Origin: Rhizobium halophilum
GTDB taxonomy: Bacteria; Pseudomonadota; Alphaproteobacteria; Rhizobiales; Rhizobiaceae
DNA length: 64,000 nucleotides
NCBI RefSeq assembly: GCF_021648825.1
Contig: NZ_JAKJHS010000001.1
Location: 62,001 to 126,000 of the forward strand
Reading direction: 5' to 3'
Part shown: positions 16,777 to 20,027 of the stretch, in pieces
Position numbering within the stretch: the first letter of the stretch is position 1
Layout: each line of letters starts with the position of its first letter
Translations under genes and position numbers: made by a program
The notes under the pieces: model-generated
The model's input: the letters and a program-made list of their open reading frames with translations, nothing else
What the model was told of the DNA's origin: nothing
Database searches by the model: none

Positions 16777-17673
16777 TCATGTCCCCTGCGAAGTCGCGTG
16801 TCTGCTTTCGTTGATCCGTTCAAGCCGCCTTTCAGTCGAACGTGCTCTCCGCCGGGCGGCGCGAAGTTCGTCGATGGTGGGCTGCCACCAACCGCGACGC
16901 CGCTCCTCTTCGGCAGCTTCCACCCGTGCCGGCCAAGTTTGAACAAGTTCCTCTAAGGTCGGCGACCGCCAGAGGGCCCAGACATGCTCTTGTTCGCGAA
17001 GAGAATAGGCCTCGGCAACCTCTTCCGGAACGACGAGTTCGCCCGTGACCTGCGTGAAGACGACCATCCCGTAGCGGACCGTGGCGATAGGTCTGCCCAA
17101 TGGCGGCAGATCGTCGCTCGGCACCGGAAGGCGTCTCTTCCGGCGCTCCAGATCGCGACGCCTCGCCTTCGCCTCCTCCTCCGTTCCCTTCCGAGCTTCG
17201 GCCCGCTTCCTGCGCTCCTCCGGCTCGCAATGCTTCGCGGCTTCTTCGATCGTCTCCCATCGGTGCTGCAGGTCGTCGTAGGAGGCGTACGGCACCTCCC
17301 ACACCTTCTCCTCGCCGTTCCACCGGGCGAAGGGTATCTGCCGCAGCTCCTCGACAACCGTCCTTGAGTACGGCGTCTTGATGCGAAAGCCGTGGTCGTA
17401 GACGGATAGGTATGGACTGAGGATGGGTTCGAACTCGAAGGCGTCGCGGCCACGCTCCTCTTCGAACGGCCTATTTCGGTTCGATTCCGAGGCCAGCCAT
17501 CGATCGACGCGGCGGCGGGCAGTGGTGCCGGGAACCGTCCACGCCTGAAGTTCGTCGCTCCATCGGGCACGAGGGAAGGTTTCGCGGAACCGAGCTACGG
17601 TCATTCTGTCGAAGCGGAAGGACACAGTTTCCGGCATCGGTTCATGTTCGTCCTGTGGCTCGTCGTCTGTCAT
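16777..17673 (-). CDS. hypothetical protein with two HARP-like modules
   Basis: This is a 298-residue protein of unknown role. Two similar modules are visible: residues about 18-60, containing FPRARWSDELQAWTVP, and about 88-145, containing IPFARWNGEEKVWEVP. The shared pattern (aromatic-rich strand, ARW, then W-x-VP) resembles the HARP domain of SMARCAL1-type annealing helicases, but no helicase motifs follow. A Lys/Arg/Glu-rich helical stretch (about 150-185) and a charged C-terminus complete it. It overlaps the upstream esterase gene by four bases (ATGA). It lies close to the Ku remnants, so a DNA-binding or repair role is possible but unproven. Confidence 0.7.
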   Translation of the reverse strand: MTDDEPQDEHEPMPETVSFRFDRMTVARFRETFPRARWSDELQAWTVPGTTARRRVDRWLASESNRNRPFEEERGRDAFEFEPILSPYLSVYDHGFRIKTPYSRTVVEELRQIPFARWNGEEKVWEVPYASYDDLQHRWETIEEAAKHCEPEERRKRAEARKGTEEEAKARRRDLERRKRRLPVPSDDLPPLGRPIATVRYGMVVFTQVTGELVVPEEVAEAYSLREQEHVWALWRSPTLEELVQTWPARVEAAEEERRRGWWQPTIDELRAARRRARSTERRLERINESRHATSQGT

Positions 17674-18328: not shown

Positions 18329-18360
18329 GAGGGCGCTCGACCCTGGCGGGGAGCGCCCTC
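18329..18360. repeat. perfect 10-base inverted repeat upstream of the esterase gene
   Basis: Arms GAGGGCGCTC and GAGCGCCCTC are separated by 12 bases. It lies 30-60 bases before the start of the minus-strand esterase gene, so it could be a 5' leader hairpin, an operator, or a relic terminator. Confidence 0.4.
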
Positions 18361-18514
18361 ACACCCCGCGCACAACCATCTACGCACGACGAGGGGGTCA
18401 GTGCGGAAGTCGCGCTTGCTTTGGGGCGGCATGATTTAGATGGTGCTGATGCACTGTGAACGCAAGATCGGCCCAAAGACCTTCTGGGGCGGCAGCTATT
18501 GTCGTGCGGAACGT

Positions 18515-18616
18515 GAATCAGACTCTCAATCTCGAGCCGCAACCCATTGAATTTAGATTCATTTCGAGTCGGAACGAATCACTTCGAATCCAATTGAGTC
18601 GCCAAACGAGTGATTC
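18515..18616. repeat. array of eight GANTC sites, five spaced exactly 10 bases apart
   Basis: GANTC, the site methylated by the cell-cycle methylase CcrM in alphaproteobacteria, occurs at 18515, 18521, 18556, 18566, 18576, 18586, 18596 and 18612. The five sites from 18556 to 18596 lie at a strict 10-base period, so they face one side of the helix. They sit between the esterase operon and the first Ku remnant, in an AT-richer stretch. Such clustering is not expected by chance and suggests methylation-sensitive regulation or a degenerate short tandem repeat. Confidence 0.6.
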
Positions 18617-18649
18617 GGAGTACAGCGTAATGGCAGGGCATCGGGCACA

Positions 18650-19210
18650 GTGGTGCCCGACAGGTCCGGCGCCGACGCCTTCGTCGCACTGCGCGAGGCG
18701 ATGAACAGGTCTAAGGTCGCTGCCATCGCTCGAACCGTTCTCTTCCGCCGGATGCGCACCGTGTTGATCCGGCCGCACGGCAAGGGGCTGATCGCGACCA
18801 CGCTGAACTTCGACTACGAGCTGCGGTCGAGTGTGAAGGCCTTCGAGGGCGTGCCCAAGATGAAGATCGAGGGCGAGATGCTCGACCTCGCCAAGCATAT
18901 CATCGGGACGAAGAAGGGCGAATTTGATCCGGCAACCTTCGACAACCGATACGAGACGGCACTTGCCGAACTCGTCAAGGCGAAGATCGATGGCAAGGCC
19001 CTGCCGAAGCGTAAGAAGATAGAGCCATCAAAACCGAACGACCTGCTCGCGGCGCTACGCGAGAGCGCGGGCATGATGAAGGCTGCAGACGAGAAGCCGA
19101 AACGGACAGCCGCCAATGCCAATGCTGGCGAGGGACGGCCACGTGCGGCGCGCGGGACGGCTGGAAAAGCTGCAGCAAAAAACCGCCCCGCAGCGCAAGG
19201 CCGGCTGAGG
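18650..19210 (+). pseudogene. Ku-family NHEJ protein, 5'-truncated remnant
   Basis: Codons from about 18674 on (AFVALREAMNRSKVAA, then LIRPHGKGLIATTL and the LDLAKHIIG region) match the C-terminal two thirds of bacterial Ku, the homodimeric end-binding protein of non-homologous end joining. The first 110-130 residues of a normal Ku are missing; stops at 18548, 18554 and 18611 close the frame upstream. Near the 3' end, six A at about 19178 throw the frame off the expected ending; with five A it would end in QRKAG followed by TGA at 19208, right before the next Ku start. It is therefore a broken copy. Confidence 0.75.
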
Positions 19211-19218
19211 AGATCGTC

Positions 19219-20027
19219 ATGGCAATCAGACCATACTGGCGCGGCTGCCTGAAGCTTTCCCTGGTGACATGCCCTGTCGCCATGACTCCGGCGACCAGCG
19301 AGAGCGAGAAGGTTCGCTTCCATACTCTGAACAAGGAGACGGGCAATCGCGTCGTGTCGCAGTACGTGGACTCCGTCACGGGCAAGCCTGTGCAGAACGA
19401 GGACGAGGCGAAGGGCTATGACCGCGGCGAGAACGACTATGTGATCTTAACGGACGACGACCTCGACGCCGTCCAGCTCGATACGGTCAAGACGATCGAC
19501 ATCGAGAAGTTCGTGCCGACAGCATCGAGTGGGTTTACCTGGAAAAGCCGCACTATCTGGCCCCCGACGATCCCGTAGGCCAGGACGCCTTTGCGGTGAT
19601 CCGCGACGCCATGAAGGCCGACGACGTCGTCGGCATCTCAAAGCTGGTGATTGGACGGCGCGAACGGGCGGTTGTTCTGGAGCCGCGCGGCGAAGGTATC
19701 GTGCTCTGGACGCTGCGCTTCGGCGATGAGGTGCGCAGAGAGGAAGCCTATTTCGAGGACATCGAGGACGCCGCCGATCCAGAACTTGTCCCCCTCGTGC
19801 AGAAGTTGATCAAGCAGAAGACCGCGCATTGGTCGCCGACAATGGTGAGCGACCCGATTCAGGAGGCCCTGCTGTCGATTATCGCGGAGAAGAAGAAGGC
19901 GCTGAAGCCTGCGAAGAAGGCCAAGGCGAAGGCCGAGGCGGCACCCACGTCCAACATCGTCGACATTATGGCTGCCCTCAAGCAGAGCCTTGCCGCCGAG
20001 CGCAAGAACGACCGGAAGGCGGGCTGA
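19219..20027 (+). pseudogene. Ku-family NHEJ protein, frameshifted
   Basis: The gene starts MAIRPYWRGCLKLSLVTCPV, a textbook Ku N-terminus, with an AGGAG site upstream. After IDIEKFVPTAS (about 19520) the Ku homology jumps to another frame (IEWVYLEKPHYLAPDDPVGQ) and continues to RKAG-stop at 20027. A small deletion, possibly one or four bases around CCGACAGC, explains it. The frame-1 product would end early at 19578. Together both frames cover a full Ku of about 270 residues. Expression as a functional protein would need frameshifting, so it is called a pseudogene, unless this is a sequencing error. Confidence 0.75.

Follow-up and report, generated by a model that had tools for sequence, protein, structure and literature searches.

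A dense, conserved array of GANTC sites at a predicted EcfG-like promoter of tandem ku genes in Rhizobium

Promoters that are dense in GANTC and controlled by methylation are already known, the described case being that of gcrA, a cell-cycle regulator. In Agrobacterium tumefaciens, the gcrA promoter holds six GANTC in 250 bp, and methylation lowers its activity, also in E. coli with CcrM (PMC11514494). In a Brucella study, GcrA is described as working with the housekeeping sigma factor; its ChIP peaks, some of them at genes of DNA repair, are 4.4- and 4.7-fold enriched in GANTC, and one GANTC lies just 3' of the ogt start codon (PMC6813329). For EcfG of R. etli, the reported motif is GGAAC-N16-CGTT (PMC3892343). 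Cell-cycle gene promoters of Ensifer reportedly show no GANTC enrichment (PMC8725594), so single sites are poor guides there. With respect to DNA repair, a further paper reports that nonhomologous end joining (NHEJ) contributes in stationary-phase S. meliloti (PMC10932983, citing Dupuy 2019).

We analyzed a stretch of 64,000 nucleotides from Rhizobium halophilum (the window), in which a motif scan places eight GANTC within 102 bases, at 18515, 18521, 18556, 18566, 18576, 18586, 18596, and 18612. The five sites from 18556 to 18596 follow one another in exact 10-bp steps. An earlier note on this DNA had given the same eight sites and the same spacing, and its positions were recovered exactly. 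The note had also called GANTC usually rare in alphaproteobacterial genomes, and the counts here agree: the window as a whole holds 95 GANTC, whereas its dinucleotide shuffles average 348, so the motif is depleted in the window, and a background sample of 464 kb from the 4.35-Mb genome (the window plus 20 stretches of 20 kb) holds 727, or 1 per 638 bp (1.57 per kb, compared to 3.55 expected from base composition). The count in this sample tops out at four GANTC per 102-bp span beyond the array, and in the only span of the sample that reaches four (L159:2270), three of the sites lie within a tRNA-Arg gene. Beyond the sample, the gcrA gene of the same genome has five in one 102-bp span. A density like that of the array is therefore rare in this genome, as the sample attests, without being unique in it. 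The Poisson probability of at least eight GANTC in one placed span of 102 bp is approximately 7e-12, and the background counts rule out chance or low complexity as the source of the array. Across the whole genome, the pattern GANTC-N5-GANTC-N5-GANTC occurs only in the array and at a second ku promoter on another contig (G000:C22:7974). As a separate observation, the region upstream of the genome's own gcrA (L153:1275-1459, start at 1501) has six GANTC within 226 bp, five of them in the span just mentioned and two exactly 10 bp apart, much like the arrangement in Agrobacterium.

The last GANTC of the array is 13 bp from the ku ATG at 18630. The earlier note had located the array between the start of an esterase gene and a truncated Ku gene; the truncated Ku stands, and at this distance the location is better described as the ku promoter. 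Behind the array, all on the forward strand, a start remnant of the first ku (18630..18704) encodes MAGHRAQW, after which eight codons the Ku frame is lost, with a stop after 24. The C-terminal part of the first ku, corresponding to approximately residues 116 to 291 of the Ku protein of a related locus (L008), was identified at 18650..19249 by Pfam Ku (9.3e-13) and tblastn. The second ku of the tandem (19219..20027) occupies two frames, 19219-19578 and 19596-20027, with Pfam Ku matches of 7.5e-21 and 4.7e-9. We read the first ku of the window as having lost its front part and the second as split over its two frames. The first ku is intact, at 301 aa, in the relatives L007 and L008, the two that were read as frames. 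The layout is a tandem ku operon, which we take to be that of Sinorhizobium ku3-ku4. The second array-bearing ku of the genome, on contig C22, is damaged too, with a split Ku match that ends near residue 183. Because both array-bearing copies are damaged, the array in this genome is a promoter without a working product. Two whole ku frames, of 285 and 296 aa, adjoin ligD-like frames at C1:723-727 kb, and the 150 bp 5' of either start contain no GANTC. In an unannotated stretch of S. meliloti pSymA (positions 215000 to 250000, L144), we observed the second ku of a pair without an intact first ku adjoining it, and this one ku has no array in the stretch read; as a positive control the stretch is therefore uninformative.

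To place the array among related genes, we retrieved 89 ku loci by protein similarity to the L008 Ku and kept the best 80. A simple rule, applied close to where the tblastn match begins, fixed each ku start, and a few are possibly off by some codons. In the 150 bp 5' of ku, 16 loci have no GANTC, 6 have one, 1 has two, 2 have three, 3 have four, 10 have five, 15 have six, 25 have seven, and 2 have eight. Four to eight GANTC are thus present at 55 of the 80 loci, which is not a rate for ku genes at large, because the query bears the array itself (L063 is its own locus) and the loci are related to one another. All other 150-bp windows in these loci (10,075, overlapping) have a mean of 0.19 GANTC and a maximum of four. 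The 55 upstream regions with the array are all distinct and form 28 groups at 80% identity. The enrichment of GANTC upstream of ku is 22.4-fold, compared to 3.65-fold for TTNAA, the next of the 16 palindromes of the form XYNY'X'; the signal is therefore GANTC, and neither AT-richness nor palindromes generally, the 16-motif comparison ruling out generic enrichment of either kind. One locus has another cluster of four GANTC (L093:489-595), approximately 2.4 to 2.5 kb 5' of ku and just beyond the end of a gene that resembles the window's open reading frame at 16777-17673.

A tree was built from 78 Ku proteins, leaving out L124 (64 aa to a stop) and L138 (223 aa to a stop); both of these loci, and L130, remain in the 80-locus counts. 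On this tree, the label "at least four GANTC" changes 5 times, compared to 21.1 times in shuffles. The array clade comprises 57 rows, 53 of which have at least four GANTC (the others have 1, 2, 3, and 3), and a second ku lies directly behind the first at every one of its 57 loci. Ten nested promoters are array-less, with zero or one GANTC, and tandem ku genes are present in all nine for which the contig continues. The 11 outer rows have zero or one GANTC, save one with four, and ten of them have ku followed by ligD. In all ten array-less promoters (L105, L113, L114, L117, L119, L120, L122, L127, L137, and L141), the EcfG-like core is cleaner and has the form GGAAC...GTT, and they constitute a natural contrast set.

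By its motifs, the array wraps the predicted promoter of the tandem ku-ku operon, which has an EcfG-like core. The features that follow are on the forward strand, and the promoters of the array clade were aligned on GGAAC (L130 has none in the expected span). Two upstream GANTC, GAATC at 18515 and GACTC at 18521 (18515..18525), lie 115 and 109 bp 5' of the ku ATG, and a GANTC 56 bp 5' of GGAAC, like the one at 18515, is found again in 19 of the 57 promoters. An AT-rich box at 18541..18555 (alignment columns -30 to -16) is conserved; it reads AACCCATTGAATTTA in the window and roughly AAGYCATTGAAAAAT in relatives. The box sits immediately 5' of the array core and is possibly an UP-like element. 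Array sites 1 to 3 form a 25-bp inverted repeat, GATTC-N5-GANTC-N5-GAATC, at 18556..18580 (consensus GATTCGTTYC GANTC GRAACGAATC). Within it, the -35 element GGAAC (18571..18575), which is EcfG/RpoE2-like, is abutted by GANTC on either side. Site 4 (GAATC, 18586..18590) is located in the promoter spacer, at offset +15, where a GANTC occurs in 3 of the 57 promoters. The TT of the -10 element (18594-18595), 18 bp 3' of GGAAC, is joined to site 5 (GAGTC, 18596-18600), the two together spanning 18594..18600. Site 6 (GATTC, 18612..18616) falls between the -10 element and the ku start, an interval in which offsets +39 to +42 account for 31 sites in the 57 promoters. Outside the array, the flank at 18360-18470 has matches of 74 to 85% in five genomes of the same genus (G031, G035, G016, G025, and G004) that do not include the array.

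GGAAC followed by TT 17 to 19 bases on is present in 57/57 array-clade, 10/10 array-less, and 10/11 outer promoters; across the array clade, GGAAC shows zero changes on the tree, and one T of the -10 element is likewise present in 57 of 57. TTGANTC at the -10 position occurs in 53 array-clade promoters (54 with looser limits). A GANTC abuts GGAAC upstream in 44 of the 57, lies just downstream of it in 37, and starts 12 to 20 bp upstream in 53. Considering together the four recurrent positions, namely the two flanking the -35 element, the one 12 to 20 bp upstream, and the one after the -10 element, at least three are occupied in 51 promoters and all four in 25. The -10 element departs from CGTT: the window has AATT, GTT is found in only 26 of the 57 array promoters, and CG is not kept. 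We therefore limit the claim to an EcfG-like core and do not speak of an EcfG promoter.

The tree also bears on whether GANTC itself is kept, with a mixed outcome. At site 5, by the -10 element, the free base N changes 13 times, compared to 2 for G, 2 for A, 3 for T, and 3 for C. At site 2, 5' of GGAAC, N changes 15 times, compared to 3 for G, 9 for A, 7 for T, and 3 for C. Columns of the promoter spacer (+10 to +19) change 10 to 19 times each. Sites 1 and 3 behave differently: 43 of the 44 intact copies of site 1 have T at N, and 31 of the 32 of site 3 have A. The changes of N number 4 and 5 there, which does not exceed the figures for its neighbors, with indels disturbing the columns of some rows. 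The spacer joining sites 1 and 2 is conserved like the sites (0 to 10 changes), and part of the core may also be readable as a longer motif. The layout of GANTC varies across clades (types A, B, and C) while density stays high. Type A keeps the symmetry of the inverted repeat. Types B and C, in which the symmetry is broken or the spacing shifted, mostly retain five to eight GANTC. Because the layout varies and the number is kept, this pattern favors the sites themselves.

A search of 60 relatives with a 361-bp query from around the array detected the array part at 72 to 84% identity over approximately 85 to 120 bp in genomes of the same genus, and no array match in any of the 25 genomes from other genera. 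With up to two mismatches allowed, the inverted repeat has 21 places in the genus, spread over 16 of the 57 genomes; with up to one allowed, it is present in 10 of 394 family genomes. The window's genome is included in both counts, and the reversed control has no match in either set. The copies inspected lie just 5' of a ku start, identified by WKG codons (by position for the window copy). Of the 57 genus genomes, 17 contain the 10-bp phased triple, which occupies 21 distinct places in all. Twenty of these are ku promoters; the single exception (G072) is inside a coding sequence that we named radA-like by reading, and two of the 57 genomes contain the reversed control, each a single time. In these genomes the triple goes with ku, a point that the earlier note had proposed to check in relatives. 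The possibility it had raised of a common dispersed repeat is ruled out, since the triple is found at just two places in the window's genome and all but one of its 21 places in the genus lie at ku. Among 72,556 plasmid records, 30 match a 131-bp region, at 31 places; 27 of the 30 are from Rhizobium, and 23 are typed as conjugative. The annotation under the matches is Ku in 11 records and a DNA helicase in 1; none is named in 4, and 14 records are unannotated.

The genome encodes the relevant machinery. Its CcrM (L154) matches 6pbd at 1.5e-163 over residues 21 to 372, its GcrA has a match of 4.5e-60, and its NepR (9.3e-16) is adjoined by PhyR-like and ECF-sigma frames, both named by reading. 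Considering this together with the comparative data, we think it probable that the array is a CcrM-methylation-gated, EcfG-like stress promoter of the tandem ku operon into which four to eight CcrM sites are packed. A methylation-dependent switch was among the proposals of the earlier note, and it is the one that best fits the comparative evidence, from which we infer both the methylation of the sites and its effect on ku. CcrM would methylate the GANTC sites around the -35 element, directly 3' of the -10 element, and upstream, and full, hemi-, or no methylation would alter the firing of ku by RNA polymerase with EcfG, perhaps with GcrA. By the precedent of gcrA, full methylation would damp the ku promoter, and loss of methylation (behind the replication fork, in periods without CcrM synthesis, or on plasmid DNA that has just entered the cell) would release it. 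Damping appears somewhat more likely than licensing; methylation as a licence for ku is almost as likely, because full methylation marks an unreplicated cell that has no sister copy, in which end joining makes most sense.

Several observations count against a methylation-gated promoter. The near-fixed N at sites 1 and 3, with the conserved spacer between sites 1 and 2, is one, and the departure of the -10 element from CGTT, in the window and in those array promoters that have no GTT, is another. The ten array-less promoters keep the core, and the two whole ku genes have no GANTC upstream, which means that a ku promoter can exist without the array. Finally, the sigma factor with which GcrA is described as working is the housekeeping one and not EcfG (PMC6813329).

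Another version combines methylation with a regulator of the repeat: a methylation-sensitive protein would read it, such as GcrA or a repressor specific for methylated or unmethylated GANTC. GcrA is present in the genome, and its Brucella ChIP peaks show GANTC enrichment and cover some genes of DNA repair (PMC6813329); the sigma factor to which GcrA is tied, however, does not match the EcfG-like core. We give this version perhaps one chance in a handful or a little better, which is counted within the likelihood of the methylation-gated promoter, because the two readings overlap.

At similarly long odds, and as the main rival, the inverted repeat over the -35 element may be the operator of a dedicated regulator of the ku operon, with GANTC merely part of the recognition sequence and methylation irrelevant. 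The arms GATTCGTTYC and GRAACGAATC are near-perfect and recur in the genus and family genomes counted above, and the constancy of N at sites 1 and 3 and of the bases separating sites 1 and 2 speaks for such an operator. However, GANTC also recurs beyond the repeat, after the -10 element, before the start codon, and upstream; types B and C mostly hold on to their GANTC where the repeat does not survive intact; N varies freely at sites 2 and 5; and no common regulator gene adjoins the operon in the three annotated loci examined.

An extension of the methylation-gated promoter, which we regard as doubtful, is that the ku-ku genes are switched by the methylation history of their own DNA and fire on entering a new cell unmethylated or where replication stalls and leaves hemimethylated DNA. 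The ku-ku genes are often on conjugative plasmids, as the 23 of 30 matched records suggest, and would thus fire on unmethylated entry. If this were true, the array would sense DNA that is new or unfinished, and error-prone end joining would be on exactly when DNA ends need fixing or capture.

Very unlikely, in our judgment, is a phased DNA-bending element in which the 10-bp spacing matters and methylation does not. Five sites share one helical face in the window, and GANTC occurs at offsets -15, -5, and +5 from GGAAC in 44, 44, and 32 of the 57 promoters, but other array promoters keep GANTC at offsets -17, +6, +17, and +26, and no other palindrome is comparably enriched. The earlier note's proposal of bending finds no support as the main function, given that spacing varies by clade and GANTC density is kept. 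The least credible reading is that the array is a relic of a replication or transposition site, a dispersed repeat, or chance: the adjoining ku genes are broken, as is the second copy on contig C22, so the "relic" of the earlier note is apt in that one sense, but the inspected copies of the palindrome sit at ku starts and not, as expected of replication iterons or transposon ends, at origins or the ends of mobile elements, the plasmid annotation names Ku under 11 of 30 matches, and the Poisson probability is minute.

The methylation-gated promoter that we favor resembles each of the described systems in part. In work by Dupuy et al. in 2019, S. meliloti ku3-ku4 reportedly provides stress-inducible NHEJ; that system shares the tandem ku genes and the link to stress and stationary-phase NHEJ, and to our knowledge no methylation control of it has been described. 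The EcfG/RpoE2 promoters have the GGAAC, the spacing, and the TT that are present in all 57 array promoters, and NepR and its neighbors are encoded in the genome; unlike those promoters, the array clade has not kept the first bases of the -10 element. We know of no EcfG promoter that carries a GANTC array. The gcrA promoter of A. tumefaciens has the same kind of dense GANTC cluster in an alphaproteobacterial promoter (PMC11514494); unlike in that case, the target here is a DNA-repair operon, the core is EcfG-like, and GANTC directly adjoins the -35 and -10 elements. GANTC is also found near GcrA/CcrM-linked promoters, some of them of DNA-repair genes, in Caulobacter and, as ogt and mutL, in Brucella (PMC6813329). 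In contrast to ogt, which is described with one GANTC and GcrA with the housekeeping sigma factor, the ku promoters have four to eight sites on an EcfG-like core.

As far as the open-licence literature reaches, a conserved, GANTC-dense, EcfG-like NHEJ promoter has not been described. We found nothing in that literature joining CcrM and Ku protein, and, by title, no account of such an array under CcrM and NHEJ, CcrM and EcfG, GANTC and end joining, or RpoE2 and NHEJ. The main text of the A. tumefaciens CcrM paper does not mention Ku protein, NHEJ, or end joining.

End joining in bacteria introduces mutations and is best kept off while a sister chromosome permits accurate repair. Its timing and mode "remains poorly understood", in the words of the paper cited above for S. 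meliloti (PMC10932983). Conserved cell-cycle methylation sites in a stress-type ku promoter offer a direct and cheap test of methylation-gated NHEJ, and they would make this promoter a strong candidate for the rhizobial CcrM regulon. If the methylation-gated promoter is real, the CcrM/GcrA circuit and that of the general stress response, both central in alphaproteobacteria, would meet on one promoter. The sequence comparisons suggest that rhizobia couple error-prone end joining to how their DNA is methylated.
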